From positions 1 through 45,027 of the forward strand of contig JAFKEE010000066.1 of assembly GCA_017307505.1 (NCBI GenBank): a stretch of DNA of 45,027 nucleotides, in the 5' to 3' direction. A program made the translations under genes and the position numbers. The notes below the pieces were generated by a model, which worked only from the letters and a program-made list of their open reading frames with translations, made no database searches and was not told the origin of the DNA. Within the stretch, counting starts at the first letter, position 1, and each line of letters starts with the position of its first letter. This DNA is from Acidobacteriota bacterium. Its GTDB lineage: Bacteria; Acidobacteriota; Terriglobia; Bryobacterales; Bryobacteraceae. Shown here piece by piece: positions 4,516-19,677 of the stretch.

Positions 4516-6273
4516 CTAGTACGGCGTCTGTCCCAAACGAATGCGGTCTCTAGTCAGAGTTACTTCCGGATGCTTGCCGCCGTCGAGTTCCACGGCCCGG
4601 TCCGCTTCCCGGTTTGCCTCCTCGAACTGTCCCCGTCCGGCCAGCAACCGGGCCAGCATCCAGTGCGGTTTGAACCACTGAGGGGAGGAATCGATGGCGG
4701 CGCGCAGATCTGCCTCCACGGCCCTGGCGTCGTTGGATGCCGAATGAAGCGCTGCCAGGTTGTAGAGGGCATTGGACCGATCTTCCGGTCCGGAGGCCGC
4801 CTGGCCCCCCGCGACGAGGGCCTCCGGCAGACTCCGGGCCGCCGTGAAGCGGCGGGAGAAGTACAGATCCGGCTGGCCGCCCAATTGGGCTGTCTCGCCG
4901 GCAGCCAGGTACTGCGCCACGGCCTCGCTGATCCGGCCGGCGTCCAGCGCAGTTTTCGCCTGCTGAAATCTGTAGTCAGCCAGCATGACACGCATCCCTG
5001 CGAGGATCAGACACGCGCCCAGGACCGCCGGAACAAGTTTCCACACAAAATTTCCAGGATTCTTTTCGTGCAGGTTGGATTCCGGCAGAAGCGCAGCGAG
5101 GAGAACAAAAAAAGCCAGGGCGGTAGGCAAGGTAAAACTGGTGAACTGCAGGCTCACGAGGACGGCGGCGAGTCCGGCCGTCAGCTCCGGATTCGTGCGG
5201 GGCGACCGCAGGGCCAAGCCACACAAACCGATGAGGATCAGCAGCCCAAGGAGGCCCTGGGCGGTAAGGGTATCCAACAGGATGTTATGCGGCGACTCGT
5301 GATAGAAGTCGGGATAGGCGCGAGCCAGTTCCGCCGACTGATAGCGCGGAAACACCGCCCCGAACAGGTCGAGCCCGGCGCCCAGTAGGGCGTGATCCTG
5401 GGCCAGGTGGAGAGAATCGCGCCAAAGCAACAGGCGGGCCCCGCCCTTCACGTCGTCGGCCGACCACTTCGCTCGTGCCACCAGCTTCGCCCCGGCAGGA
5501 CTCAGCAGGAGCAGTCCGAGAGCCGCAACGACGCCGGCAGAGAACAGGCCCAGGGCGCGGAGTGACGGCCGTCGTAGAAGGACCAGACAAAGCGCGCCGG
5601 CCGCCAGTCCCAGCAGGGCCGCGCGAGTCCCGCTGAGCAGAATCGCCAGGGGCATCAGGATGAGGGCACACCAGGCGAGCCTGCGGTTCGTTTGATACAG
5701 CGTCAGGGCGGCGGCGAGTGCGAATAGAAGGTAAGTAGCAAAGTAGCCGGCATGACCCAGCGTGGAAGGGGGCCGCACAATCTGATAAATCCCCTCACCC
5801 GACAGGTATGAGGCCGGCGGCAGCAGAGGATCCCAACCAAGATACTGGGCGATTCCATAAGCAGCCATGACGCAGCCGGAGAGGGCAACAGCCTGGAGCG
5901 AACGCTGCAGGATTTTCCGGTTGGCGGCGCAGTGCGCAGCGGCCAGCAACACGAAGAGGACGAGCGCCGTTTGTGACAGCAGGCCGAAGCGGCGCCAGTT
6001 GCCGCCGCCCACGGAGAACCATGGGTGGGCGGTCATCACCGTGGAAAGCAACAGCGAAACAAGCTGCGCGCCCAGCAGGCCGATGAACCAGCGGCCGGTT
6101 CTGCCATGCCAGAGGGAGAGCACGGCCCGGCGATTGTCCTCAAACCAGAAAAGCGCGATTCCGGCGCCAAATAGTAGTACCGCGACCTTCGGCGCGATGT
6201 CATAGTAAAAAACAACATTGGGCAGAATCAGGAGGGGCAGTAGAGCGAGGGTGACTGGAAGCAGGATCCCCAT
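4516..6273 (-). CDS. O-antigen ligase/polymerase (Wzy/WaaL-like) membrane protein with C-terminal TPR
   Basis: A 585-residue multi-pass membrane protein with about a dozen hydrophobic segments across residues 1-415. The Wzy_C signature region is visible: SGTRAA (214-219) after a membrane helix, GGARLLLWRDS in the large periplasmic loop (277-287) and HESPHN (325-330) before the next helix. Residues from about 425 onward form a soluble TPR-like tail (helical repeats with Ala-rich A/B helices and SPQWFKPHWMLARLLAGRG), as in TPR-bearing ligases. Such proteins polymerise or transfer lipid-linked glycans at the outer face of the inner membrane. The gene is divergent from the chain-length protein (24 bp apart). 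A second ligase-like gene lies at 7352, so one may polymerise and the other may ligate glycan to an acceptor. Confidence 0.85.
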   Translation of the reverse strand: MGILLPVTLALLPLLILPNVVFYYDIAPKVAVLLFGAGIALFWFEDNRRAVLSLWHGRTGRWFIGLLGAQLVSLLLSTVMTAHPWFSVGGGNWRRFGLLSQTALVLFVLLAAAHCAANRKILQRSLQAVALSGCVMAAYGIAQYLGWDPLLPPASYLSGEGIYQIVRPPSTLGHAGYFATYLLFALAAALTLYQTNRRLAWCALILMPLAILLSGTRAALLGLAAGALCLVLLRRPSLRALGLFSAGVVAALGLLLLSPAGAKLVARAKWSADDVKGGARLLLWRDSLHLAQDHALLGAGLDLFGAVFPRYQSAELARAYPDFYHESPHNILLDTLTAQGLLGLLILIGLCGLALRSPRTNPELTAGLAAVLVSLQFTSFTLPTALAFFVLLAALLPESNLHEKNPGNFVWKLVPAVLGACLILAGMRVMLADYRFQQAKTALDAGRISEAVAQYLAAGETAQLGGQPDLYFSRRFTAARSLPEALVAGGQAASGPEDRSNALYNLAALHSASNDARAVEADLRAAIDSSPQWFKPHWMLARLLAGRGQFEEANREADRAVELDGGKHPEVTLTRDRIRLGQTPY

Positions 6274-6297: not shown

Positions 6298-7368
6298 ATG
6301 ACGGATTCGTTCGATGCGTACGAATATTTTCAATATTTAAAGCGAAAGTGGTGGTATTCCGCACTCGCCTGCGGAACCGCGGCCACGCTTGCGCTGCTGG
6401 GCTGCGCGCTAATGACGAAACAGTATTCGGCGACAGCCAGCATCCTGATCGATCCGCCCCCCTCGAGTGATGTGAGAACGGCGGTCGCGGTGAGTCCCGT
6501 GTATCTGGAATCGCTGCGCACCTACGAGCACTTCGCCGGCAGCGACAGCCTGTTCCAGAAGGCAGTGGAGCAATTCCACCTGACCGCGGCTGAACCGACG
6601 GAGCCAATGGAACGGCTGAAGAAACGAGTATTGAAGGTCTCGAAACTGCGCGACACAAAGATCCTCGAAATTACGGTGACCCTGCCCGACCCCCGGCAGG
6701 CCGCAGCCCTGGCCGGCTTTCTCGCCGCACAGACCGCGGCCCTGAGCCAATCCGTAGGACGCGCCGGCGATCAGGACCTGATCTCGCACACCGAGCAGCA
6801 GTTGCAGGCCGAAGAGAAAAGGATGGGTGAGTTAAACACAGCGCTGCAAACCCTGGAAGCGGGCCATTCCGACAGCGCGGAACGCTACAAACTGGAGAAC
6901 CTGATTGATTCGCAGGCCGGCGTGGATCGCGAACTGATGCGGGGCCAGGCCGATCTGGCCGAGCATCGCGAAGACGGCCTGCAGCGGCGGGTGTCCGAAC
7001 TGCAGAAGCAAAGCGCGGCGTTGAAGACGCAGGTGGCCGAAGCGGAAGCGATGCTCGCCCGAACGGCGTCAAGGCGCGATGTGCTGGAAGCGGACATCGC
7101 CACGGCGGTGCGGGAACGGGACGCCTTGCGATCCCGCGCGCGCGAACTGCGCGCCAGCATGGGGACGCGCGGAGAACGGCTGAGCGTCATCGACTCCGGT
7201 GTCGTCCCGCAGAGGCCAAGCTCTCCCCGGACCTCGTTGATTGTTTTGTCGGCCTCGCTGCTCTCGTTCGTAGCTTCCCTCGTGTACCTGAGTGCCGGCT
7301 ACAGCATGGCTCATCTGCGTGGACGAAACACGCGTTTCTCTCAGCTCGAACATGAACGCAAGTATTGA
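6298..7368 (+). CDS. Wzz/GumC-type polysaccharide chain-length determinant
   Basis: A 356-residue protein with the architecture of polysaccharide co-polymerases. It has a short cytoplasmic N-terminus (SFDAYEYFQYLKRKWW), a first membrane helix near residues 20-40 and a long periplasmic region with coiled-coil content (about 170-270, rich in E, Q, A and R). The proline-rich PQRPSSPR motif comes just before a second helix (about 310-332). It lacks the C-terminal tyrosine-kinase (BY-kinase) domain of Wzc, so it is the kinase-free type. It sets polymer length together with a Wzy polymerase. The next gene starts inside its 3' end (17-nt overlap), so they are translationally linked. Confidence 0.85.
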   Translation: MTDSFDAYEYFQYLKRKWWYSALACGTAATLALLGCALMTKQYSATASILIDPPPSSDVRTAVAVSPVYLESLRTYEHFAGSDSLFQKAVEQFHLTAAEPTEPMERLKKRVLKVSKLRDTKILEITVTLPDPRQAAALAGFLAAQTAALSQSVGRAGDQDLISHTEQQLQAEEKRMGELNTALQTLEAGHSDSAERYKLENLIDSQAGVDRELMRGQADLAEHREDGLQRRVSELQKQSAALKTQVAEAEAMLARTASRRDVLEADIATAVRERDALRSRARELRASMGTRGERLSVIDSGVVPQRPSSPRTSLIVLSASLLSFVASLVYLSAGYSMAHLRGRNTRFSQLEHERKY

Positions 7369-8734
7369 TCGGCGTGAACACAATCCGCTGGTCCCGTTGC
7401 TGCTGGGCAGCGGCGCGGCGGCCATTGCATTTCTGCCTTCCGGCGCCGCACAGGTTGTGGCCGCGGGCGCTTTGCTGGCCGCTCCGTGCCTTTGGTTCGT
7501 GCTGCTGAAGCCGGACCGCTGGCTGTCGCTGTTCTTTGCGGCGTGCCTGCTGGCGCCGCCGCTGCCGGTGGCCGCGGGCAACTCAGGTCCTCATGTTGCC
7601 CTGGGCCTTGCATGCTGCGGACTGCTGGTGGGGCTTCTGAGGGCCGGGGACTGGCAGCCCAGGTTTCACGCGGTGACCGTACGGCTGGGCCTGCTGTTTG
7701 CCGCGCTGCTGGGCAGCGTATCGTTCGCGTTGTTCTACTCCGGCGCCGGCGTGGCGGCGGGCAGCCTGGCGCGGGTCTGCCTGTTCGGCATCGGGTGCTA
7801 CGTGTTCGTGTTTACGGCCTGGGGCCCCGAACAGAGGCACCGCCGGTTGGCGGCACAACTCTTCTGGTTCGCCGCCGGGTCAGCGTTGTTCGCGTGTTTG
7901 GATTTCTACTTCCAATGGCCGGCTCCGGCCGGCTACGGACCACAGTTCATCTGGCTGGACTCCGGCGTCTTCCGCCGCGCGCAGGGTGTCTTCTACGAAG
8001 CCAGCACGCTGGGCAATCTGTGTGTCTTCTTCCTCACCATGTGCGCGGTGGCCCTGCTGCGCCCACGCGATGAGGGCCCCGTGCCGCGCCTGGCGATCGC
8101 CGGCGCCGCGCCCCTGCTGGCCACCGCACTGGTCCTCTCCTACTCCCGAGCCTCCCTGGTGACGCTGTGTGTCTCGGTGGGGACATTGTTCCTGCTCCAA
8201 AAGAAGGGCCTGCCCGTGCGGCGCTGGGGCTTCCTCGCGGCCGCCTCCATGGCGGCAGGTGGGACACTGGCCTTCCTTCTTTTCCCCGAGTTCGTGCGCG
8301 GTTACCTGGCCAGGATCGCGCTCTCCGTGCAGTTTCTCTTCTCGGCGACAAACGGAGTGCTCTCCGGCCGCGTGGAAAGTTGGCAGAGGCTGACCACGTT
8401 CCTGATAGAGCATCCCTGGCACCTGCTCTTCGGGGTCGGGTACAAAACCCTGCCGTACTCTGACGTGGCCGGCGCGCCACTGATTGCCGACAACATGTAT
8501 CTCAGCCTGTTGGCCGAGACCGGCTTCGTGGGTCTGCTCGCCTTTCTGGCCTTGAACATTGCCATTCTCCAGGCGGGCTGGCGGGCCCGGTCCAGTTTCT
8601 ATGGCGCCTGGATCTTCAGTTTCTGGACCGGCCAAACCATCCAGATGCTCTCGGGTGACCTGCTGACGTATTGGCGCGTGATCCCCATCTACTTCTGGGT
8701 ACTTGCCCAGACGATCCGGGTGGAACGCGAATGA
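7352..8734 (+). CDS. O-antigen ligase/polymerase-like membrane protein (second copy in locus)
   Basis: About 460 residues from ATG 7352. A GTG at 7292 would extend it deeper into the Wzz-like gene without adding recognisable sequence. It is highly hydrophobic, with about 11-12 predicted membrane segments. It carries a Wzy_C-like loop: SYSRASLV after a helix, then SGRVESWQRLTTFLIEHPWHLLFGVGY, then IADNMYLSLLAETGFVGLL. This organisation is shared by Wzy polymerases and WaaL-type ligases, and the two cannot be separated by sequence alone. Unlike the 4516-6273 protein it has no TPR tail. The stop codon overlaps the start of the glycosyltransferase gene as ATGA. It is probably the polymerase partner of the preceding chain-length protein. 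Confidence 0.82.
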   Translation: MNASIDRREHNPLVPLLLGSGAAAIAFLPSGAAQVVAAGALLAAPCLWFVLLKPDRWLSLFFAACLLAPPLPVAAGNSGPHVALGLACCGLLVGLLRAGDWQPRFHAVTVRLGLLFAALLGSVSFALFYSGAGVAAGSLARVCLFGIGCYVFVFTAWGPEQRHRRLAAQLFWFAAGSALFACLDFYFQWPAPAGYGPQFIWLDSGVFRRAQGVFYEASTLGNLCVFFLTMCAVALLRPRDEGPVPRLAIAGAAPLLATALVLSYSRASLVTLCVSVGTLFLLQKKGLPVRRWGFLAAASMAAGGTLAFLLFPEFVRGYLARIALSVQFLFSATNGVLSGRVESWQRLTTFLIEHPWHLLFGVGYKTLPYSDVAGAPLIADNMYLSLLAETGFVGLLAFLALNIAILQAGWRARSSFYGAWIFSFWTGQTIQMLSGDLLTYWRVIPIYFWVLAQTIRVERE

Positions 8735-9876
8735 ACCTGCTGCTGCTGGACCAGTTCAGCGAGTTGGGCGGCGCCCAGCGTTGCCTGCTGGATCTCATCC
8801 CGGCCTTCCAGGATCGAGGGTGGAAACTCGCGGCGGCAATGCCTGGCGAGGGACCCATGTTCGAACGCCTGGCATCGATGGGCGTTTCCACCACCACTCT
8901 GCCTGGCGGACGCTACTCGTCAGGTTCGAAGACGCTGCGCGATGCGGCACGCTTTATCCGCTACACACGGGCGGCGGCCCGCCTCGTGCAACAACTGGCG
9001 GCCGCGCAGTCCGCCGACCTCCTCTATGTGAATGGCCCCAGGCTGCTGCCGGCGGCCCGGCTCAGCGGTGCGCCCTTCTGTTTTCACGCCCACAACCGGC
9101 TCATGCGATGGCACGATCTGCTGGCCGCGGGCTGGGCCCTGCGCGGCGCGCCGGTGATCGCCAGCTCGGAGTTCGTGGCCGCGCCGCTGCGCCGGTTCGC
9201 CAGTCCTGCGATTGTTCCAAACGCCTGTGAGGACCTCGGTTTTCGCCGTGCGGCGGCCAGCCGTGCCCTGCGAGTGGGCGTGGTGGGCCGCATCGCGCCG
9301 GAGAAGGGACAACTGGAGTTCGTGGAAGCGGTGCGCCGGCTGGAAGGCCGGATTCCCGGATGCCGTTTTGTCCTCTGCGGCGATGACGTGCTGTCGCGCG
9401 CCGGCTATAAAAAACGGGTGCTGGAGCTGGCGGCGGGGACGTCCATCACGTTTACCGGCTGGATGAGCGAACCCGCGGAAGCAATGCGGCAGGTGGATGT
9501 GCTCATCGTCTCCTCGACGGCAGAAGATGCGACTCCGCGCGTCATTCTGGAAGCCTTCTCCTCCGGCGTGCCCGTGGTGGCCTTCGCGGCGGGCGGCATT
9601 CCGGAGCTCATTCAGGACGGCGAGACCGGATTCCTTGTGTCGCCGAGGACACCAGAAGCGCTAGCTGCGCGCTTGACGGTGCTGCTCAAGGATCCGGGCG
9701 AACTGGCACGAGTGGCGGCCAACGCGCGGCGCCAGTGGGGTGTGCGCTACTCGATCGATCGCTACCGGAATCAGGTGGCCGGTTTGTTGGAGACCTGCGT
9801 CCCGCGGAGCAGAATCCAGAAGAGCATCGCCGCCGCGGCGCCGACAACCCCCGCTCCGCCGAGTGTCGCGGAGTAG
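8731..9876 (+). CDS. Family 4-type glycosyltransferase (GT-B)
   Basis: A 381-residue protein from ATG 8731, chosen because it overlaps the previous stop as ATGA. The N-terminal half opens with LLLDQFSELGGAQRCLLDL, the usual GT4 acceptor-domain start with its GGA loop. The C-terminal half has VGRIAPEKGQLEFVEAV, a nucleotide-sugar domain hallmark, and the E-x7-E-like region ending PRVILEAFSSGVPVVAF. It therefore uses a nucleotide-activated sugar and probably adds one residue to a lipid-linked repeat unit at the cytoplasmic membrane face. The sugar is unknown. Its last 106 bp overlap, tail to tail, the 3' end of the nucleotidyltransferase-MFS gene on the other strand. Confidence 0.88.
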   Translation: MNLLLLDQFSELGGAQRCLLDLIPAFQDRGWKLAAAMPGEGPMFERLASMGVSTTTLPGGRYSSGSKTLRDAARFIRYTRAAARLVQQLAAAQSADLLYVNGPRLLPAARLSGAPFCFHAHNRLMRWHDLLAAGWALRGAPVIASSEFVAAPLRRFASPAIVPNACEDLGFRRAAASRALRVGVVGRIAPEKGQLEFVEAVRRLEGRIPGCRFVLCGDDVLSRAGYKKRVLELAAGTSITFTGWMSEPAEAMRQVDVLIVSSTAEDATPRVILEAFSSGVPVVAFAAGGIPELIQDGETGFLVSPRTPEALAARLTVLLKDPGELARVAANARRQWGVRYSIDRYRNQVAGLLETCVPRSRIQKSIAAAAPTTPAPPSVAE

Positions 9877-12182
9877 CCGAAGCGGGTGATGGCCAGCCCC
9901 GCGGCGGAAGCCGCCAGCAACTGGGCCAGCAGGATGGCCATCATGTTCAGCGCGGCCGCCCCGGCCATCTCCTCCTTCGAAAGCGGGTTCATCAGCACGC
10001 TATACATGCCGGGCTCGGACATCCACTGGGCCGCCATATAGGCAACGTAGAGCAGCGCCCCCATGCCCGGAGAAGCGGCCCAGGCGAGGCCCAGCAGACC
10101 TGTCGCCGCCGCCACCTGCATGGCGACGATGCCCGGGATCAGGCCCAGGCGTCGCAGAAGCAGCGGCGCGGAGAGCATGGCGGCCGCCTGCACAAACTGG
10201 GAAGTGGCGAAGATGGAACCCAGTCCGGTGACATCCGCATGGAGCTTGCTGGTGAAGTAGGCATTGAAGAAGGGGTTGAAGGCGCCGGTGGCCAGATTCC
10301 AGACCACCAGCGCCGCCAGATAGCGCCAGACGACCGGATTGCGAGGGTAGATGCGGGGCGACGCCGCTGGCGTTCCGGCGGACGAGAGCCTCAGGCGCGA
10401 GACCGGCCAGGCGGCCGCAACCACCAGCAGGCAGGACGCAAGCAAGGCGCTCTTCTTGCCCGGCGCACCGATCGCCGCGAACCAGCCCGGCAGGCGGCCA
10501 CCCAGCAATCCACCCAGGATGCCCATCGCCACACCCGAGGAGAAGAAGATGCTGTAGCCCAGCGAGCGGCTGCGCGGGGTGGTGAGCCGGGCGATGGCCG
10601 GGGCGAAGGCCACGGTGAAGGCGGAGAGGACGACACCGCCGAGAAACGCCGTGATGAGCAGAGCAGCGGATCCGGTCACCAGAACGCGCAAGGTAAACAC
10701 CGCGCCCAGCGCCACAAAGGCAGTGCTGATGAGCCACGCCGGCCCCTTGCTTTGGAGCAACGCACCCATTGGCAATGCCGCGACAAAGCTGCCCGCCGTT
10801 TGGGCGCTGCTGATCGTACCTAGGAAATCTTCCTTGTAGCCGAGATCGATGAGCTGCAGGTTGTACAGCAGCATGAAGACGAACAGGCCCAGTTCGTAGA
10901 GCCAGGCCGCGCTGAGAAATCGCCAGAGGCCCGGCTCGATGCCTTGGCTGCGCGAGAGCCAGGCGGCGCCGTGGAGGAGTGTGGGCAGAGCCGCGCGGCC
11001 GTGGAAGACTGACCTGGCGCCCAGATGCAGCAGATACTTCCAGCGGCGGCGGAAACGGATCCAAAGTGTGAGCTGTTCCTCCGGCACGAGCACTGCGTCG
11101 ACCTCGCCGGGCAGCGTCGTCGGAATCAGACGCCGCAGGAGGATGGCCGCCCGGTCGCGGTTCGAGTCCACCAGGTTCAGATGAAGCCAGAGCTCATGCT
11201 TGTTGGGGACGAACTGTCCTTCCAGCGGCGCCAGCGCGTACTCGTCCAACCACTGTTTCACACCGTCAGGCAGCGCATCGACGGCTTGCGCGGCATGGGG
11301 CGGCAGCCGGCAGCCGAACCATCGCGCGGCAATGGCGAAACAGATGGCCTGCGGGCGGCGTAGCGAGTCGCCATGCAGGGCATGCCAGTTCTCCCAGAAC
11401 TCAGTGTTCTCCGCATGACGCTGGAGCAGCCATGCCAGCTCGTAGACGTGGCTGGGTCTCGCATTGCCGTGGAGAATGTGGCGCAGCAGATGCAGGCAGC
11501 TGTAGCCGAGCCGGTCTACCGGGTGGAGGGCCGGGTAGTGGAGTTCGCCGACGCTGTCCATTTGGCTCCGGGCAGCGAATTCCTCCAACCCCTGAGGCAG
11601 GAACCTTTCGTTCGGCTCGTTCCAGAAGCGGAAGTGCAGATCGACACTGATGGGGATGCCGGGATCGAAGTAGTCGCCCTTCCATTCCCAGCCGGTCTTT
11701 TTCACGAGCACCGGCAAATGGTCGATGGGATGGCGATCGTAGCCGATGAGCGATTCGTAGCCCAGCGTCAGCAGTTGTTCCCGCGCCTGGTGGACGTGCT
11801 CCGGCGGGCAGAAGAGGTCGAGATCGTATTGCACGCGGCCGCCGGGCTCCTGCGTGAACCAGGGGCTCTGGGTAAAGCCCTTCAGCAGGATAAAGGGGAT
11901 CCCTGCGTCATCAAGAGCGGCGGCGATCTGTGTGTACGCTTCCGCGAGCTTGAGGAACCTGATGCGGTTCGCCGCCAGATTCTTCTCCAGCCGCGCCCGG
12001 ATCTCGGGCGGCAGGCTGTCACCGCACTTCGAAAGCAGGCTGAGGCTCAACTGGGTGCGGTCCAGGAATTCGAGAACCTGTGGCCAATAACCCGGGGCGA
12101 CAGAGGCGAGTGTGTCCTCCGGCGACCGGTCGAACCGGAGCCCCTCCAGAACGGCGCGAATCGGAGCAGGTATGGCGCTCAT
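9771..12182 (-). CDS. Fusion: nucleotidyltransferase-like domain plus MFS transporter
   Basis: A single 803-residue open frame with two unlike halves. Residues 1 to about 380 resemble the uncharacterised nucleotidyltransferase family NTP_transf_5 (PF14907). Visible signs are ILLKGF (98-103), the paired acidic motif YDLDLF (119-124) and a third acidic residue in SVDLHF (179-184), the usual metal-binding triad of the polymerase-beta fold. Residues from about 415 to 800 form a typical 12-helix MFS-type carrier (start WLYELGLFVFMLLYNLQL, then RSRSLGYSIFFSSG, and a second bundle after about residue 615). No stop codon or frameshift separates them. The start overlaps the receptor stop by one base (TAATG), so translation is coupled. 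Stand-alone PF14907 proteins occur with HprK-like kinases in exopolysaccharide/exosortase and some lasso-peptide clusters. The substrate is unknown. Confidence 0.8.
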   Translation of the reverse strand: MSAIPAPIRAVLEGLRFDRSPEDTLASVAPGYWPQVLEFLDRTQLSLSLLSKCGDSLPPEIRARLEKNLAANRIRFLKLAEAYTQIAAALDDAGIPFILLKGFTQSPWFTQEPGGRVQYDLDLFCPPEHVHQAREQLLTLGYESLIGYDRHPIDHLPVLVKKTGWEWKGDYFDPGIPISVDLHFRFWNEPNERFLPQGLEEFAARSQMDSVGELHYPALHPVDRLGYSCLHLLRHILHGNARPSHVYELAWLLQRHAENTEFWENWHALHGDSLRRPQAICFAIAARWFGCRLPPHAAQAVDALPDGVKQWLDEYALAPLEGQFVPNKHELWLHLNLVDSNRDRAAILLRRLIPTTLPGEVDAVLVPEEQLTLWIRFRRRWKYLLHLGARSVFHGRAALPTLLHGAAWLSRSQGIEPGLWRFLSAAWLYELGLFVFMLLYNLQLIDLGYKEDFLGTISSAQTAGSFVAALPMGALLQSKGPAWLISTAFVALGAVFTLRVLVTGSAALLITAFLGGVVLSAFTVAFAPAIARLTTPRSRSLGYSIFFSSGVAMGILGGLLGGRLPGWFAAIGAPGKKSALLASCLLVVAAAWPVSRLRLSSAGTPAASPRIYPRNPVVWRYLAALVVWNLATGAFNPFFNAYFTSKLHADVTGLGSIFATSQFVQAAAMLSAPLLLRRLGLIPGIVAMQVAAATGLLGLAWAASPGMGALLYVAYMAAQWMSEPGMYSVLMNPLSKEEMAGAAALNMMAILLAQLLAASAAGLAITRFGYSATLGGAGVVGAAAAMLFWILLRGTQVSNKPAT

Positions 12183-15100
12183 TAGAAATCAGCGCGGAGC
12201 GCAAACTGGAAGCGGCGCGGCTCACCGGCGGACACAATCCTTCCAAAGAAGGGCCCAAAATCGGGATTCGGAACAGGGATGCCGACGTTGGGGTGGTTCA
12301 GGATGTTGAAGCCTTCGGCGCGCAGGGAAAGGGCCAGACGCTCGCGCACCTGAAACCGGCGCTGTAAGGCGGCGTCCACTACGCCGTTGCCCGGAGAGGG
12401 CAGTATATTCCTGCCAGCATTGCCAAAGGTGAAGGGCTTGGGGGTCTGGAAGGCGTCCGCGTTGAAATAGCGGTCGATGCTGCGCTGAGAGGCAGGCAGT
12501 TGCACGCTTTGGCCGGGCACCAGGTCCGGCCGGTTCGGAGTGCCCGAGTTCGCATTGTCCACGGTGAAGTACACGGGATTCAAGGGCGTGCCGTCCTGGA
12601 AGGTAAGGAGGCCGCTGGCCTGCCAGCCTCTGAATACGGGCTTCAGGAAGGGCAGCTTCGGGACATTGTAGACAACCCCGCCGCTCAGCCGGCGTCCTGC
12701 GTTGAAGAACGAGAGCCCGCGCTCCAGCCGCAGATTGCGCTCGTCCTGCGCGCTCCAACTGTCGTAGAGGCCATTGGTGACGGCGTCGGCGTCGTCGATC
12801 GATTTCGACCAGACGAAGGCGAGCAGAAAAGAGAGTCCCTTCGAGAGGCGGCGTTCGCCCTTCACCTGCAACGACTGGTAGGACGAATTCGCGATATGTT
12901 GCCGCTGGAAGATCGGCCCCAGTTCGGGAAAGGTACGCAGCGACTGCAGGTCGCCGGGCCGCGGATCCAGATTCTCACCGGTCTCCACATGCAGCGGCGT
13001 GTTGAAGCGGCGGAGACGTCCCAGGTGCGTACCCTTGCTGCCGACGTAGCTTACATCCAGAACGCCCACCGCGCCGATTTCGCGCTGCAGACTGAAGTTC
13101 CACTGCTGCATGTAGGGTGTGGCCGCGTTCCGGTCGAGTCCGAAATAGCTGGGCAGGCCCAGTGCACTGTTCTGCGGGAAGCCGTTCGCGGTGGTCAACA
13201 CCGGCAGCAGTCCATTGGTCTGGTTGGTTTCGTTGCGCAGGCCATTGCGGACCAGGTCGTAGGTCTCGATGGCGATCTCGGGTGAGTAGAAGAGACCGTA
13301 TCCGGCGCGCAGAACCGTCCTGGAATCGCCGCCGCGCAAGCCGGGCAGATGCCAGGCGAGCCCGAGGCGCGGCGCAAAGTTCCTGCTGTTCGGCTCCACG
13401 GCCTGCGAGCCGCCCACGAGGCGCGGTGCGGCCGGCAGGGTTGAGTAGTCGAGGTTCAACAGATGGCCGCGCTGCTCCGTGTAGGGCGAGAAGCGCTCAT
13501 ACCGCAGCCCCACGTTGATGGTCAGCCGGCGGGTCGGCCGCCAGTCGTCCTGCACGAACACGCCATAGTTGTGCTGGCGCAGGTAGGCCAGCGCATCGCC
13601 CGCGTTGCGCTGGGTGTTCTGCGGATACCCGAGCAGGAAGTCGGCAAAGGCATCGCCGGTCGCATCGGGATTCAAGGGATCGTTCGTGAAAGCCCCGTTG
13701 AACTGGTATTGGCCTCGTGGAAAGCGGCTCTGCAGGTAGTTGAGCTGGAAGTTCAACCATTGGAAGCCCGCCTTCCAGTTGTGTTTGCCGCTCACGCGGG
13801 CATAGCTGGCGGACGCGTTCCACAGGTTGTCGCGCTGCACCTGCGGCAGCGTCGTCGTGTCGATCACGGTTTCGAAATTGGTCACCAGGAAGTACGGCAG
13901 TCCATAGAAGAACGGGTCGGAGGAGAAGCCGGTGATGCCCAGTTCGGCCATCACATCCTTCTGGAAGGCGCTTTCCGGGATGTTGAAGACGCGCAGCCGT
14001 GTGTAGGAAAGCCGGCCCTCGCTGGTCCAGTGGCTGCCGGTGCGCAGGTAGCCGAGCGACACCTGCTGGGCCCGCAGGTTCTCAAGGCTCGGCCGTTCCG
14101 GGAAGGCGCGGCCCAAACGGCCTCGCTCGTCATTGATCGTGTAACGGCCGAACAGGGAGCTGCCATCACGGAACTGATGGTCCAGCCGGCCGTTCGCGCT
14201 GTCGTTGTCGTGGCGATCCGGCGTCGAGTCCAGATAGTTGGTGTTGCCCTCGGGACGATTGGGCAGGGGCAGGTAGGTGTCTATATACCTGCGAGCTATG
14301 CCGTCGATGCGGGAGGCGGGAATCCGGTTGCCCGGCAGGGGCGCCCGCTGTCCCGTGACGATATCCGCATTGAGGGGATCGAAGATCGGATTGCGGCCCG
14401 TGAAGTCTCCGGCGCGCAAGGCTGTATTCGGGAACAGGTGGAGGGTGGAGGCGGCCGCCTGCCCGCGCAGCCCGTCGTAGGCGGCGAAGAAGAAGGTCGA
14501 GTGCAGCGGCACACGGCCTCCGACCGATCCGCCGAACTGGTTCTGGCGGAAGATCGGGCGCGGCAGCGAAGGGTCGTCAAAGAAGCTGTGGGCGTCCGTT
14601 GCCTCGTTCCGCAGGTACTCGTAGGCGCTGCCGTGCAATTGCTGCCCGCCGGATTTGGTGACGACATCGATGACCCCGCCGCCGGCATTCGGGAACTCCG
14701 CGGCCGCCAGGGACGACTGCACGCGGAACTCCTGTACGCTCTCCAGCGGCGGCACAACCGCAATGGAGAACGTGTTGCGGTCCGTGTTGTTGGCGCCATC
14801 CAGCAGATACATGTTCATTGTGGAGCGTCCGCCATTAATGGGATGGTTCAGGGCCACCAGTCCGCGATTGCCCTGCAGGTCTGTGATGGTGTCGTGATAG
14901 AAGCCGCTCAACTGGCGCGGAATCGCGCCCGGACCCACGGTGATCAGCGATACGATGTTGCGGCCCACCAGCGGCAGCGAAGCCACGGCGGAGGACTCAA
15001 AGTAGGTACCGGCCGTGGAGTCGGCAGTCTGCAACTGCGACACGTCCGCCACGACATCCACGGAGGCGTTCGATTCGCCGGGCTTGAGTTCAAAGTCGAG

Positions 15101-15391
15101 CCGCGCCTTCTGGTTCACTTCGATCACGGCTTCGCGCGCAATGGTGACCTGAAAGCCTGCCTTCTCGGCACGCACGGAGTAGTTCCCCGCCGCCAGCCCG
15201 TCGAGAGTATAAGAACCCGCGCCGTTGGTCACCGCGGTCCGGACAAAGCCGGTGGCAGCATTGCGGGCCACTACATGCGCGCCAGGCACCAGCGCCTGGG
15301 AGGAATCCTTCACCTCGCCCAGCAACGTACCCGAGGATACCTGCGCCCAGGCGGCGCAACTCCAAAGGAGAATCGCGGCCAGGATCCTCAT
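12182..15391 (-). CDS. TonB-dependent receptor with N-terminal carboxypeptidase-regulatory-like domain
   Basis: A 1069-residue outer-membrane protein. It has a signal peptide (residues 1-16, ending AAWAQ), a carboxypeptidase-regulatory-like beta-sandwich (about 20-105; GTLLGEVKDSSQALVPGAHV, then GSYTLDGLAAGNYSVRAEKAGF) and a plug-like segment (about 110-245; LPLVGRNI, the LDGANNTDRN turn and VDVVTKSGG). A long 20-plus-strand barrel follows, ending in FQFALRADF with a terminal aromatic residue. This is the acidobacterial 'Oar-like' layout, widely expanded in Solibacter-type genomes. Here it is placed inside an exopolysaccharide locus, between and coupled to the HprK-like gene (ATGA overlap) and the nucleotidyltransferase-MFS gene (TAATG overlap). 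A role in moving a product of this operon across the outer membrane is an inference. Confidence 0.9.
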   Translation of the reverse strand: MRILAAILLWSCAAWAQVSSGTLLGEVKDSSQALVPGAHVVARNAATGFVRTAVTNGAGSYTLDGLAAGNYSVRAEKAGFQVTIAREAVIEVNQKARLDFELKPGESNASVDVVADVSQLQTADSTAGTYFESSAVASLPLVGRNIVSLITVGPGAIPRQLSGFYHDTITDLQGNRGLVALNHPINGGRSTMNMYLLDGANNTDRNTFSIAVVPPLESVQEFRVQSSLAAAEFPNAGGGVIDVVTKSGGQQLHGSAYEYLRNEATDAHSFFDDPSLPRPIFRQNQFGGSVGGRVPLHSTFFFAAYDGLRGQAAASTLHLFPNTALRAGDFTGRNPIFDPLNADIVTGQRAPLPGNRIPASRIDGIARRYIDTYLPLPNRPEGNTNYLDSTPDRHDNDSANGRLDHQFRDGSSLFGRYTINDERGRLGRAFPERPSLENLRAQQVSLGYLRTGSHWTSEGRLSYTRLRVFNIPESAFQKDVMAELGITGFSSDPFFYGLPYFLVTNFETVIDTTTLPQVQRDNLWNASASYARVSGKHNWKAGFQWLNFQLNYLQSRFPRGQYQFNGAFTNDPLNPDATGDAFADFLLGYPQNTQRNAGDALAYLRQHNYGVFVQDDWRPTRRLTINVGLRYERFSPYTEQRGHLLNLDYSTLPAAPRLVGGSQAVEPNSRNFAPRLGLAWHLPGLRGGDSRTVLRAGYGLFYSPEIAIETYDLVRNGLRNETNQTNGLLPVLTTANGFPQNSALGLPSYFGLDRNAATPYMQQWNFSLQREIGAVGVLDVSYVGSKGTHLGRLRRFNTPLHVETGENLDPRPGDLQSLRTFPELGPIFQRQHIANSSYQSLQVKGERRLSKGLSFLLAFVWSKSIDDADAVTNGLYDSWSAQDERNLRLERGLSFFNAGRRLSGGVVYNVPKLPFLKPVFRGWQASGLLTFQDGTPLNPVYFTVDNANSGTPNRPDLVPGQSVQLPASQRSIDRYFNADAFQTPKPFTFGNAGRNILPSPGNGVVDAALQRRFQVRERLALSLRAEGFNILNHPNVGIPVPNPDFGPFFGRIVSAGEPRRFQFALRADF

Positions 15392-16380
15392 CGCGCCATG
15401 CCCTTCTCCGCCAGACGCCGCAGGGCCGCCTCAGCGGAATCGAACTCGGAATAGGTGAAGTCGTAGGCCCGGATCCGGTCCAGATTGCGCAGGCACTCCT
15501 CCTGCTCCGCAATCATCCACTCATCGCCGTAGCGCGGCAGTTTCAGACGCTCCTGGATGTCATCCATAACGGGGGTCAGCCTGACTTCGGCGCCTTCCTT
15601 TCGATTGAGAAAAATGAGGTATTGGACGTCGGCGCGAACTTCCGTGCGAATGCCGGGAAAGTCGGAGGGACGTGCGAAGACCGTCGGCTTCCCATTGGTC
15701 CGCTGGACAGATGCGTGTTCGCTCAGCAGAGGAAACAGGCGGGCCGCATCGCGTTTGAATCGCAACTCATAGGGATTGCCGATCACGGTTGCGGAGCCGA
15801 AGCTGCGTACCAGGTAGCTGGCGTCGTCACACACCAGGCTCCAGCCCCGCATGGCGCAGGCGATCGCAAGAGACGTCTTGCCCGCGCCCGACTCTCCACA
15901 GAGCAGCAGCCCGCAGCCGTTCCAGGAAACGCAGGCGCCATGCACGCCCGACAGGTGCAGGCTGTGCAGCATCGTGTAGACCAGCGCGTCGGTGAAGGCA
16001 TCCCGGAGATACAGCCTGTTCTTCGCCGTCGATTCGGTGATCCAGGCACAGGCAAAGCCCGCGGCCATGTCGCACGATGCCTGGTTCGCCCGGTTTCCGT
16101 AGACGGACAGAAGATGCCGGCGACAGCGGAACACCGGCTGCGGCAGGGGCTCTTCCTGGTCGTCTGGGCTCACGACCACGCTGAGGTGCAGAGGGGTGGT
16201 TTCGAACGCTTTCTCAAAGCGCCCCCAGCTTTCCTGCAACGCATCCAGCACATCCCGGGAATTCGTCTCCGCCTGAATCGGAAATCCCAGAGGGTACAGC
16301 GTCGATCGGATTGGTAGCTCGAGCCTGGATAGCAGGGGGTCTTCCTGCGTATCGATCCGGCGCCGGTCTTCAGTTTGCAT
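15388..16380 (-). CDS. HPr kinase/phosphorylase-like P-loop protein
   Basis: A 330-residue protein with a P-loop GESGAGKT (162-169) preceded by hydrophobic strands GCGLLLC. A downstream WSLVCDDASYL (180-190) has the paired aspartates typical of the HprK C-terminal domain. Spacing between these motifs and the preceding V-H-G-A segment fits the HprK-related kinases of polysaccharide and RiPP clusters, not the true HPr kinase of carbon control. There is no PTS-type gene here and the N-terminal 140 residues are unlike canonical HprK. Related proteins phosphorylate a peptide in some lasso clusters, and in exosortase loci their substrate is unknown. The stop overlaps the receptor start (ATGA). It lies 84 bp after the flippase gene. 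Confidence 0.82.
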   Translation of the reverse strand: MQTEDRRRIDTQEDPLLSRLELPIRSTLYPLGFPIQAETNSRDVLDALQESWGRFEKAFETTPLHLSVVVSPDDQEEPLPQPVFRCRRHLLSVYGNRANQASCDMAAGFACAWITESTAKNRLYLRDAFTDALVYTMLHSLHLSGVHGACVSWNGCGLLLCGESGAGKTSLAIACAMRGWSLVCDDASYLVRSFGSATVIGNPYELRFKRDAARLFPLLSEHASVQRTNGKPTVFARPSDFPGIRTEVRADVQYLIFLNRKEGAEVRLTPVMDDIQERLKLPRYGDEWMIAEQEECLRNLDRIRAYDFTYSEFDSAEAALRRLAEKGMAR

Positions 16381-16464
16381 CCAATTGCCGCTGGAACAGC
16401 GCGCGCGGCTCCCCTTTCTTGGAGTTGGACAGCAAATCTCAGCGGGCGAAACAGCGAATTTGTA

Positions 16465-17850
16465 TCAAAATGCGTCGACGTCGCCGAAGGCAGCGACGTC
16501 TGCTGTGGGTGCGGAGTTTGTTCGCCGCAGACTCTGGAGACGGCGCCTCAGCTGGAAGCCCAGCGTCGTAAGCACGCTCAACTGGGTCAGCACAGAGGCC
16601 AGCGCAATGCCCTGGACGCCCAGCATGCGGCGCAAATGGTAGTCCGCCAAAGCGGCAGTCACCACGCCCACAGCCGCCGAGGGAATGACAAGCTCATTCG
16701 CGGCCAGGGAAGAGGCCAGCCGGAATCCGATCGCGCCCATCACCGCCAGCGGAACCTGGAGCAGCGAATAGCGCTGCACCCAGGCCACCTCGTAGGCTGC
16801 CTGGGCGGAAAAGGCGCCTTTCTGAAAGACCAGCCGCACCAGTTCCTCAGAGAACAGCATCAGTAGCGCGATCAGGGGGATCGTCACCAGCAGCACCAGG
16901 CTGCCGAAATGAAGCAGGCTGGCCCTCATTGAGCGCCAGTCGCCGGTTACCGCCAGACGTGCCATCTGCGGCAGCGCACCCGTGGCGATGGACACCGGGC
17001 CCAGCGAGAGAATCACCAGGGCCAGTTTCGTGCCGAAGCCGAAGATGGAGAGGCTGCCCGGGGCCAGCGCCGCGGCCATGGCATTGTCGATCAGGGGAAT
17101 GCACCCGAACAGCATAGAACTCAGAATCAACGTGCCGAACTGACGCAGCACGGGCGCCAGGCGCGGCAGTGCGCCCGTCATCTTCGGGACCAGCGGGAAT
17201 CCCAACCGGCAGACTCCGTAAGCCAGCAGCGCGGCCTCCAGGGTCCCTCCAACCACAGTGCCCACGGCCAGCACGTCCACACCCCAGCGGCCCGACCAGA
17301 AATAAAGCATAGCCAGCGAAACCAGCGGCGTGGCCACGGGCGCCAGCGCCGGCAGCGCGAAGCGATTGGCTGCATTCAGAACACAGCGCCAGACAATGTT
17401 GCAGGCGGTCAGCGGCAAGGCCGGCAGCAGCAGCCACAGCAGCCTGACCGTGACCTCGGATTTAGCGGAACTGAAGCCGGCGGCGAGCACCGGCAGCAGG
17501 AAAGGAAATGCAAGGCCCAGCAAGACGGCTGCAACCGCCATCGCCGCAGCGCCGGCCCCGAAGGCAGTGCGATAGAGGCTTACCGCGCCTTCCTGATGCT
17601 CCCGGACCGAGGCGCGGATCAATGCCGGAATCAACGCCGGAGCAGCAGCCGCGGCCAGCACATCGCCCAACATCGCGGGCAGCAGGAAAGCGGCCAGGAA
17701 GGCATCCTGCGCATCGCTGGTGCCAAACAGATGCGCCGCATAGACCAGCTTCAACAAGCCAACGGCCCTGACCGCCATCCCACCGCAGGCCACAATCGAT
17801 GTGGCCGATACCATCGAAGCTGTGGGGCCCGCTCGTGGAAATAGCCGCAT
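16465..17850 (-). CDS. MurJ/MviN-like lipid-linked glycan flippase
   Basis: About 461 residues from ATG 17850-17848, preceded by GAGGCG. A GTG at 17862 adds four residues. The protein shows about 13-14 membrane segments and MOP-superfamily features close to MurJ: the N-terminal stretch VRAVGLLKLVYAAHLFGTSDAQDAFLAAFLLPAML (shown here in outline; an 'FGTSDAxDAF' turn is diagnostic), then APALIPALI, and Arg/Lys-rich cytoplasmic loops. MurJ proper flips lipid II. A copy inside an exopolysaccharide locus more probably flips the undecaprenyl-linked repeat unit, since no separate Wzx is visible. It is the first gene of the minus-strand operon that continues through the HprK-like, receptor and nucleotidyltransferase-MFS genes. 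Confidence 0.83.
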   Translation of the reverse strand: MRLFPRAGPTASMVSATSIVACGGMAVRAVGLLKLVYAAHLFGTSDAQDAFLAAFLLPAMLGDVLAAAAAPALIPALIRASVREHQEGAVSLYRTAFGAGAAAMAVAAVLLGLAFPFLLPVLAAGFSSAKSEVTVRLLWLLLPALPLTACNIVWRCVLNAANRFALPALAPVATPLVSLAMLYFWSGRWGVDVLAVGTVVGGTLEAALLAYGVCRLGFPLVPKMTGALPRLAPVLRQFGTLILSSMLFGCIPLIDNAMAAALAPGSLSIFGFGTKLALVILSLGPVSIATGALPQMARLAVTGDWRSMRASLLHFGSLVLLVTIPLIALLMLFSEELVRLVFQKGAFSAQAAYEVAWVQRYSLLQVPLAVMGAIGFRLASSLAANELVIPSAAVGVVTAALADYHLRRMLGVQGIALASVLTQLSVLTTLGFQLRRRLQSLRRTNSAPTADVAAFGDVDAF

Positions 17851-17912
17851 GAGACGCCTCACAAAAATAACACGCAGCTTCGAACTTGCCCAATGCTAAA
17901 CTGCTTTGGCAC

Positions 17913-18995
17913 ATGCGGGTCGCCATCGCGCACTACTGGCTGCTCAACATGCGGGGCGGCGAAAAAGTCCTGGAAGCGCTGTGCCGCCTCCTGCCGCAGG
18001 CCGATCTATTTACACTTTTCTACGAGCCTCAAAAAGTTTCGGAAATTATCCGTTCCCGCAGGGTCACCGCTTCTTTCTTAAATCCTGGAAGAAGATTCTA
18101 TCGATCGTTGCTGCCTCTGATGCCGCTCGCTCTGGAGAGCCTCGACTTGCGCGACTACGACCTCGTGATAAGCAGCGAATCCGGTCCGGCCAAAGGTGTC
18201 CTCACCCGCACCGGGACGCGCCACGTCTGCTACTGTCATACGCCCATGCGCTACCTGTGGCAGTTGTATCCCGACTACCTGCACGACTGGACGCCTGCCT
18301 GGAAACGCGGCCTCATGGCGCCCATCGCCAATTACCTGCGCCTCTGGGACTACTCCACCGCCGCACGTGTCGACGAGTTTGTCGCCAATAGCGAGAATGT
18401 GCGGCGGAGAATCTGGCATACGTACCGCCGCGAAGCGGAGGTCGTGTATCCCCCGGTCGACGTGCAGCACTTCACCTGGGCACCACCCGGCGACTTCTAT
18501 CTGTCCGTCGGCGAACTGGTCGCCTACAAACGCCTTGATTATGCGGTTCGCTGGTTCTCCACATCAGGACGGCGCCTGAAGATTGTCGGCTCGGGTCCGG
18601 AGTATCAGCGCCTGAGGACGCTCGCCGGGCCGAACGTCGAGTTCTGCGGCCATGTCAGCGACTCGGAGTTGTACCGCCTCTACGCGCAATGCCGTGCCCT
18701 GCTGCTGCCGGGCGAGGAGGATTTCGGCATCACCGCCGTGGAGGCGACGGCCAGCGGCAAACCCGTCATCGCCCTGGGCCGCGGCGGCGTGCTCGACAGC
18801 GTTCCGCCGGAAGGTCTCTTCGCATACGAAATGCCAACAGCAGCGGACCTGGCGGCCGCGGTCGAAGCCTTTGAAGCAGCCGAGGCAGCCATTCCCGCGG
18901 AAGCGCTTCAACGGTCTGCCGCCCGCTTTTCGGAAGCCGCGTTCACCGCCCGCATGCATTCGATCCTGCGCCTGGAGCAGCCGCCCACCCGGTGA
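17913..18995 (+). CDS. Family 4-type glycosyltransferase (mannosyltransferase-like)
   Basis: A 360-residue GT-B protein. ATG 17913 is preferred over an in-frame TTG at 17886 because the conserved start MRVAIAHYWLLNMRGGEKVLEAL begins there. It shows the N-terminal GGEKVL loop, the CYCHTPMRYLW segment, and the C-terminal donor site with LLPGEEDFGITAVEATASGKPVIA, which contains the E-x7-E pair. Close relatives act in O-antigen and exopolysaccharide assembly, often as mannosyl- or other GDP/UDP-sugar transferases. The donor is not predictable here. The next gene, the sugar-1-phosphate transferase, starts 8 bp after the stop, so they form an operon. The promoter must lie in the 62-bp gap facing the flippase gene. 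Confidence 0.88.
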   Translation: MRVAIAHYWLLNMRGGEKVLEALCRLLPQADLFTLFYEPQKVSEIIRSRRVTASFLNPGRRFYRSLLPLMPLALESLDLRDYDLVISSESGPAKGVLTRTGTRHVCYCHTPMRYLWQLYPDYLHDWTPAWKRGLMAPIANYLRLWDYSTAARVDEFVANSENVRRRIWHTYRREAEVVYPPVDVQHFTWAPPGDFYLSVGELVAYKRLDYAVRWFSTSGRRLKIVGSGPEYQRLRTLAGPNVEFCGHVSDSELYRLYAQCRALLLPGEEDFGITAVEATASGKPVIALGRGGVLDSVPPEGLFAYEMPTAADLAAAVEAFEAAEAAIPAEALQRSAARFSEAAFTARMHSILRLEQPPTR

Positions 18996-19002
18996 CCATG
19001 GC

Positions 19003-19677
19003 ATGACCGGCTACCCCGAGTTGGGAGTCCCGATGCAGACGGCCGGCCGGCGCGGCTCGGCGGCAACAGCGGCGCGGCTCTTCGAGGCCGCCGAATGGAT
19101 GCTTACGGCGGCCCTCCTGGCCATCTCCAGTCCTGTATTCCTCGGCGTGGCGCTCACCATCCTGATCCTTTCGCGCCGCACGCCGTTCGTCGCGCATCTG
19201 CGCAGCGGCCAGGCCGGCCAGCCGTTCTGGATGTGGAAGTTTCGCACCATGTGGCCGCGCCATAGGCCCGCTGCGGCTCCAGGGCTGGTGGAACGCGTGC
19301 ACTCTGTCCCGTTCCACTGGCGCAAAGCCAATCCGGATCCGCGTGTCACCAGCCGCTTCGCGCGCTTCTGCCGCAAATACTCACTCGACGAACTCCCGCA
19401 GTTGTGCCACGTGTTGTCGGGCCGCATGGCTTTGCTTGGCCCCCGCCCTCTCACTGCCGAAGAACTGGCCGTTCACTACGGCACCGACACGGCCGAGGTT
19501 CTGTCCGTCAAGCCCGGCATCACCGGACTCTGGCAGGTGAACGGGCGGAACCGTCTCACCTATCCTCAGCGGCTGCGGCTGGATCTGTTCTTCGTCCGCC
19601 ACAATGCCCCGGGGTTGCGGTGCATCATCCTATTGCGCTCGCTGGCCGTCGTACTCAGCGGCCGCAATGCCTCGTGA
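19003..19677 (+). CDS. Polyprenyl-phosphate sugar-1-phosphate transferase (initiating enzyme)
   Basis: A 224-residue protein from ATG 19003. It has one N-terminal membrane segment (about residues 25-50, MLTAALLAISSPVFLGVALTI) and the conserved bacterial sugar transferase domain: WKFRTM after the membrane segment, KYSLDELPQL, LGPRPL, and KPGITGLWQVNGRN near the C-terminus. It thus resembles the catalytic half of WcaJ/WbaP-type enzymes without their extra N-terminal helices (a short, PglC-like form). It transfers a sugar-1-phosphate from a nucleotide sugar to undecaprenyl phosphate, the first committed step of repeat-unit synthesis. It directly follows a glycosyltransferase gene and closes the exopolysaccharide locus. 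Confidence 0.9.
   Translation: MTGYPELGVPMQTAGRRGSAATAARLFEAAEWMLTAALLAISSPVFLGVALTILILSRRTPFVAHLRSGQAGQPFWMWKFRTMWPRHRPAAAPGLVERVHSVPFHWRKANPDPRVTSRFARFCRKYSLDELPQLCHVLSGRMALLGPRPLTAEELAVHYGTDTAEVLSVKPGITGLWQVNGRNRLTYPQRLRLDLFFVRHNAPGLRCIILLRSLAVVLSGRNAS

Follow-up and report, generated by a model that had tools for sequence, protein, structure and literature searches.

What do an HprK-like kinase and a PF14907 nucleotidyltransferase, two enzymes whose likes are known from lasso-peptide clusters, do beside an outer-membrane receptor and a major facilitator superfamily (MFS) carrier within a polysaccharide locus? The question is raised by a 45,027-nt stretch of DNA (the window), which is one entire contig (JAFKEE010000066.1) of a 9.39-Mb, 75-contig genome of a Bryobacteraceae member of the Acidobacteriota (GCA_017307505.1). 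An earlier note, made from the letters of the window alone, had described four coupled minus-strand genes there and a path from inner-membrane flipping through modification to passage across the outer membrane. Pfam, coordinates, and strands agree with the four genes (a MurJ-like flippase, the HprK-like kinase, an Oar-like receptor, and a PF14907-MFS fusion), and their junctions can be read directly as claimed, i.e., 84 bp from the MurJ stop to the kinase ATG, then ATGA, then TAATG. We find that this unit is real, conserved, and not incidental, and, what is new, that genomes in which the nucleotidyltransferase is unfused carry a B12/radical S-adenosylmethionine (SAM) cluster, a pattern that suggests import, through the carrier, of a building block which carrier-less relatives make themselves.

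A conserved unit with a dedicated receptor

Conservation was assessed in a family sample of 237 genomes, most of them draft or metagenome assemblies, and on 80 stretches gathered beside the window, onto which the window proteins were mapped; architecture was scored by tblastn with these proteins and simple distance rules, and the relatives' genes were called in this analysis. The kinase occurs in 75 of the 237 genomes and the nucleotidyltransferase in 71, all with the kinase, so that the latter is present in 71/75 kinase genomes and in 0/162 others; the window genome itself yields a single match to the kinase query and a single one to PF14907. Scattering in relatives would have spoken for an incidental operon, and the genes are not scattered: in 58 of 70 nucleotidyltransferase loci, the kinase is found no more than 6 kb upstream in the same orientation, while among the remaining 12 a contig end falls between the two genes in eight and they stand apart in four (G011, G042, G201, and G273). 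The flippase fares differently. A MurJ-like gene immediately precedes the kinase in no more than 15 of the 71 kinase stretches, and we therefore reject it as a core member and place the flipping step, with which the proposed path had begun, outside the core. Coding bias puts its start perhaps at 17778. A scan of positions 8500-18500 returned no sigma-70-type promoter, with a model that says little for this phylum, and 10 terminator-like sites versus 7.2 in shuffles.

The receptor follows the fusion. The fusion and receptor states could be read in all but 10 of the 70 loci, and the receptor is present in 27 of the 34 with an MFS fusion versus none of the 26 unfused. Receptors of this type are very common in the window genome (168 stretches match, and the best of the others is 34% identical), and 29 of these paralogues share a median of only 29.7% identity with the operon receptors. 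The operon receptors of full length, 23 in all, fall in a single clade (support 1.0) and are 52-94% identical to one another (median 57.5). Judged by these sequence relationships, the receptor is a dedicated orthologue of the unit rather than one of many paralogues; the single orthologous clade and the 27/34 versus 0/26 distribution led us to reject it as a chance neighbour, and both receptor and MFS carrier thus belong with the kinase-nucleotidyltransferase pair, as had been supposed. Its PF25183 barrel scores 692 bits (PF00593 reaches 24.5 bits, below its cut-off of 27), and its N-terminus resembles a signal peptide by eye.

Both enzymes of the pair look active from their conserved residues. 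The kinase has an Hpr_kinase_C domain (38.8 bits, cut-off 33.3), and its residues H147, G162, G165, G167, K168, T169, D185, and D186 match, offset by one, the motif register of the lasso-peptide kinase BsfK (H148, G163, G166, G168, K169, S170, D186, and D187), most of which proved important on mutation according to the part of PMC10368454 available to us. Across 61 relatives, the histidine, G167, the lysine, and the serine/threonine are found in all 61, G162 in 60, G165 in 49 (absent in 12), D185 in 54 (glycine in seven), and D186 in 58 (glutamate in three). Two more specific assignments were tried and rejected, namely canonical HPr kinase/phosphorylase (TIGR00679, 34.9 bits versus a cut-off of 240) and HPr-rel-A kinase (TIGR04352, 39.2 bits versus 200); in a PDB profile search, the HPr kinases 1jb1, 2qmh, 1ko7, 3tqf, and 1knx ranked first or close to it, interspersed with generic P-loop ATPases. 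The fusion protein comprises a nucleotidyltransferase part (residues ~1-410; PF14907 at 50-290, 106.3 bits, cut-off 31.2) and an MFS carrier part (~415-803; MFS_1 from residue 424, 74.8 bits, cut-off 33.4). Residues K101-G102, R116, D120-x-D122, and H155 of the former are kept in 59/59 aligned relatives; the latter has eight strong hydrophobic segments by a crude hydropathy count that is not decisive. The PDB profile search with the fusion protein returned four matches, none useful (best E 0.16).

Around the kinase, two kinds of variation were seen in passing. L101 (G259) and L111 (G043) each carry two tandem copies of the kinase immediately ahead of the receptor, and a small protein that by eye resembles an extracytoplasmic function (ECF) sigma factor lies near the kinase in six genomes (L105, L128, L156, L160, L161, and L164).

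Near-exclusion of carrier fusion and radical-SAM cluster

The cluster that often accompanies unfused nucleotidyltransferase genes encodes B12-binding radical-SAM proteins, three methyltransferases, a TRZ/ATZ-like amidohydrolase, and a SPASM radical-SAM protein, none of which reaches the cut-off of the NCBIfam models matched. In G273, it sits between kinase and nucleotidyltransferase, i.e., in the place that the receptor occupies in the window. Cluster genes lie inside the gathered stretch in 15 of 26 unfused loci and in none of 36 fused ones. Genome-wide, the cluster was scored by one marker, its first radical-SAM protein (E <= 1e-90), which is found in 36 of the 237 genomes; 34 of these have the kinase, and the other two are 79% and 82% complete. 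The marker is present in 26/28 unfused versus 1/36 fused kinase genomes (Fisher p 1.6e-14, uncorrected for kinship); the nucleotidyltransferase state could be read in all but 11 of the 75 kinase genomes, seven of which have the marker.

Kinship was considered through trees. Genera 25, 35, 50, 91, and 100 hold both fused and unfused states, and the tree of the nucleotidyltransferase domain requires at least 10 changes for the MFS, 11 for the marker, and nine for the receptor. Among six independent supported pairs on this tree, the marker changes opposite to the MFS in ~5 and the same way in none, and MFS and receptor change together in ~3.4 of five pairs and never oppositely. The exclusion is therefore repeated and one-sided, with too few pairs for significance in the strictest test. 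The earlier note had left export or re-import open; because the MFS fusion and a biosynthetic radical-SAM cluster nearly exclude each other, import is now favoured, short of proof.

The pattern recurs in other families of the class, where the fusion protein was matched in 64 of 399 genomes, 28 of them in the window's own family. Twenty stretches from the other 36 genomes were picked by this match and thus speak to recurrence, not frequency. The kinase is present in 17 of the 20, and 14 of these 17 have a similar MFS beside kinase or nucleotidyltransferase (fused in two, G434 and G440, and separate in the rest), with no radical-SAM cluster within the stretch in any of the 14. G384 and G520 show no MFS and combine the kinase and the nucleotidyltransferase with eight of the nine genes of the cluster, inside which the stretch ends; G528 has the kinase and neither MFS nor cluster. 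In nine of the 17 loci, all nine with an MFS, a receptor gene of the same strand immediately precedes the kinase, and these receptors form their own clade (support 1.0), with a median of 26.5% identity to the window type, no closer than paralogues.

Other neighbours in these families (a two-component system, a cupredoxin, and a cytochrome c) gave no clue to a substrate. A block of response regulator, dCache sensor kinase, porin-like protein (by eye), and cupredoxin-like protein lies near the kinase in L216, L217, L221, L223, L227, L230, L231, and L232, and its order is resembled, by order and look only, in L104, L125, L147, L163, and L164. A GDPD phosphodiesterase with HEAT repeats is encoded immediately after the MFS gene in three genomes from another family (L226:7361-9091(-), L229, and L233), which would fit phosphodiester chemistry.

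Genomic setting and likeness to known systems

That the unit sits within a polysaccharide locus holds up in Pfam, with two Wzy_C proteins, a GNVR protein, two GT4 glycosyltransferases, and a sugar transferase on its flanks (Table 1). The Wzy protein between the GNVR and convergent glycosyltransferase genes is found in 60 of the 237 family genomes, and 59 of the 60 also have the kinase. Possible candidates for transferases of an activated group are both GT4 proteins and the sugar transferase. In the window's genus, a glycosyltransferase at 71-86% identity is confined to the three kinase-bearing genomes; a match at E <= 1e-30 occurs in five of nine genomes in all, the others of these five at 43-44%. 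A simple empty site was sought in the same-genus genomes without the unit and none was found, the 71-86% glycosyltransferase being gone there too. The fusion gene and the convergent glycosyltransferase gene overlap by 106 bp (9771-9876), and their matches overlap also in G006, G003, G019, and G256.

Table 1. Genes of the unit and its flanks in the window, and radical-SAM clusters in relatives. Positions with an L prefix are those of the relative's stretch; neighbour counts over the 71 kinase stretches are lowered by short contigs.
Feature	Position	Strand	Size	Basis or remark
PF14907 nucleotidyltransferase-MFS fusion	9771..12182	-	803 aa	Pfam
Oar-like outer-membrane receptor	12182..15391	-	1069 aa	Pfam CarboxypepD_reg and PF25183 barrel
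HprK-like kinase	15388..16380	-	330 aa	Pfam Hpr_kinase_C
MurJ-like flippase, optional member	16465..17862	-	465 aa	MurJ, 164 bits
GT4 glycosyltransferase, divergent, frequent neighbour	17886..18995	+		Pfam; 50/71 kinase stretches
Bacterial sugar transferase (PF02397)	19003..19677	+		Pfam on longer frame 18652-19677; start by coding bias
GT4 glycosyltransferase, convergent	8671..9876	+		Pfam; 41/71 kinase stretches
Wzy_C polymerase/ligase-like protein	7292..8734	+		Pfam; 39/71 kinase stretches
GNVR chain-length protein	6298..7368	+		Weak Pfam, 20.6 bits, cut-off 27.7; 36/71 kinase stretches
Wzy_C + TPR protein	4516..6273	-		Pfam; 30/71 kinase stretches
Radical-SAM cluster in G273	L149:4389-14284			Also P450
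Radical-SAM cluster in G016	L120:299-8850			Directly upstream of kinase
Radical-SAM cluster, further cases	L230, L232			Tied to kinase-nucleotidyltransferase pair

Lasso-peptide clusters are the most obvious comparison, and the earlier note had invoked the co-occurrence there of HprK-like kinases and PF14907 nucleotidyltransferases. The likeness lies in enzyme chemistry and not in cluster membership. With the paeninodin kinase, PsmK/PsmN, and BsfK/BsfN, the unit shares an HprK-like kinase of the same catalytic register beside a nucleotidyltransferase, PsmN and BsfN being PF14907 members. In contrast to these pairs, there is here no PqqD/B1 (PF05402), among the matches listed (a limit that goes with each statement on PqqD in this text), no B2 protein (Transglut_core3, PF13471), and no recognised precursor, and a receptor, an MFS carrier, and a polysaccharide locus are added. 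The absence of a PqqD-like protein, noted earlier for the window, extends to the whole genome, as does that of B2. Of 46 PF14907 genes counted in the family genomes, none of the 21 of the present type lies within 15 kb of PqqD or Transglut_core3, versus 15 of the 25 others; six weak ones (43 bits or less) were left out of the count, and their contigs bear no listed match to PqqD or B2. A hidden lasso or other PqqD-type cluster was rejected on these grounds. A Pfam scan of 20 window proteins showed neither an exosortase nor an Asn-synthetase-like cyclase, with no aimed search made for the former and no genome-wide search for the latter; no precursor peptide was seen, small open frames not having been searched systematically. 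Separately from the studied locus, G041 holds a second, distant HprK-like match (31%) beside PqqD and Transglut_core3 (C9:195662-198066), i.e., in a lasso-type setting. As to the chemistry of the known pairs, PsmN puts one or two hexoses on the phosphate in vivo, and the nucleotidyltransferase step was observed in vivo only, according to the available part of PMC8498205.

Other systems resemble the unit in part. The HPr-rel-A system shares the distant kinase similarity given above, and its PqqD is lacking in the window genome. Oar itself has a CarboxypepD_reg domain and a barrel, as does the window receptor. Unlike Oar of Myxococcus xanthus, which the seen portion of PMC6434023 describes as required for secretion of PopC, the receptor here stands with a kinase, a nucleotidyltransferase, and an MFS carrier. 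Closest in logic is lic1 of Haemophilus, which to our knowledge consists of other protein families throughout and has no receptor. Its LicA, LicB, LicC, and LicD are a choline kinase, a permease, a pyrophosphorylase, and a transferase with overlapping start codons (PMC2992063, as far as its available text goes); like the present unit, lic1 combines kinase, carrier, and nucleotidyltransferase, and it decorates a surface glycan with a small molecule obtained by salvage; unlike lic1, the present unit has no identified transferase. Searches of the open-access literature, a weak test given that scope, returned no paper naming PF14907, none with NTP_transf_5 and nucleotidyltransferase, and none joining Acidobacteri, exopolysaccharide, TonB-dependent, and radical SAM. 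Of HPr kinase, radical SAM, nucleotidyltransferase, and Acidobacteri, three came together only in the lasso paper PMC10368454, and exosortase with HPr kinase and PqqD led to three papers on lasso peptides.

Possible roles of the unit

The conserved operon with its receptor and MFS members thus stands as interpreted earlier, and MurJ flipping as a core step does not. Our preferred reading, held tentatively and at somewhat less than an even chance, is that the kinase-nucleotidyltransferase pair activates a small molecule with which the surface glycan is decorated and which some strains make and these import. In the path that we infer, with its direction of transport, substrate X, chemistry, order of steps, and glycan acceptor, the Oar-like receptor would take X across the outer membrane and the MFS domain would move it across the inner membrane; the HprK-like kinase would phosphorylate a hydroxyl of X, the PF14907 domain, tethered to the carrier, would couple X-phosphate to a nucleotide or sugar, and the glycan machinery of the locus would use the product as a decoration. 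In relatives without the MFS, the B12/radical-SAM cluster would make X or an equivalent. We read this as salvage because the choice between a biosynthetic cluster and an uptake path resembles a supply problem, with lic1 as a precedent for the logic. A bolder version, in which the pair is supplied either by the in-house B12/radical-SAM pathway or by receptor and fused MFS, the two having repeatedly replaced each other and two unrelated receptor clades having been recruited, seems to us rather doubtful.

Several alternatives need to be weighed against this salvage reading. Kinase and nucleotidyltransferase might instead build a phospho-glycosylated product that the MFS pumps out and the receptor passes on, with the radical-SAM loci serving another product by another route; an enzyme-carrier fusion fits making and exporting equally, the locus is biosynthetic by Pfam, and Oar's role in PopC secretion (PMC6434023, in the part available) is a precedent. 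Such export, like the peptide tailoring considered next, is a serious rival but nonetheless unlikely, given that the alternative module is biosynthetic, which fits a supply problem better, and that the protein families found repeatedly in radical-SAM loci, not all of them scanned, yielded no recognisable replacement exporter. TonB receptors, moreover, are mostly importers. It is less probable again that the kinase phosphorylates a serine or threonine of a peptide or protein encoded elsewhere, to which the nucleotidyltransferase adds hexoses as in pseudomycoidin and whose product receptor and MFS handle: the conserved kinase motif and the chemistry of PsmK/PsmN, the paeninodin kinase, and BsfK (the accessible portions of PMC8498205 and PMC10368454) would suit this tailoring, but the absence of PqqD and B2 from the genome, the 0/21 versus 15/25 count, and the lack of a visible precursor, within the limit given above, do not.

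A pair acting at the level of the glycan without import, on lipid-linked sugars of the locus whose modified intermediate the MFS flips, with receptor and radical-SAM cluster serving other ends, would fit the position inside a polysaccharide locus and the optional MurJ; we think it distinctly improbable, as it leaves unexplained both the mutual replacement of MFS fusion and radical-SAM cluster and the retention of a receptor with the MFS only. Very improbable indeed is that a common receptor and a common carrier stand beside the pair by chance. The abundance of the receptor type and the small number of supported independent pairs would allow it, but an orthologous receptor kept in place, a gene fusion, reciprocal module exchange, and a second receptor clade recruited elsewhere speak otherwise.

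A number of observations weigh against salvage for glycan decoration. Neither a substrate nor a dedicated transferase was identified, and the biochemical precedents for such kinases and nucleotidyltransferases act on peptides in the available parts of their reports (PMC8498205 and PMC10368454). Seven fused loci lack the receptor, and in the window receptor the plug domain PF07715 went undetected at E up to 5 (it is detected in the L223 receptor, at 31.4 bits). G257 has both modules, and G110 and G056 have neither. The pair test of MFS against marker gives a median p of only 0.0625 on the nucleotidyltransferase tree; on the kinase tree (eight MFS changes), ~4 of five pairs are opposite and none the same, with a median p of 0.125, and receptor against marker is weaker (five pairs, ~2.3 opposite). 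Finally, the window's polysaccharide genes are not beside the other-family loci, save for single sugar-transferase-like matches and G089, where receptor (56%), nucleotidyltransferase, and MFS occur together with polysaccharide genes; the glycan acceptor would thus not be general.

Together, these results point to a second home of the kinase-nucleotidyltransferase pair, in surface-glycan loci and in a genome without PqqD or B2, which offers a clean setting for asking what PF14907 enzymes transfer. The product of the radical-SAM cluster is the first candidate for both receptor ligand and kinase substrate, and would assign a function to one of the many orphan receptors in these bacteria. If the pair is indeed supplied either by synthesis or by uptake, soil producers and scavengers would be linked through a shared building block.

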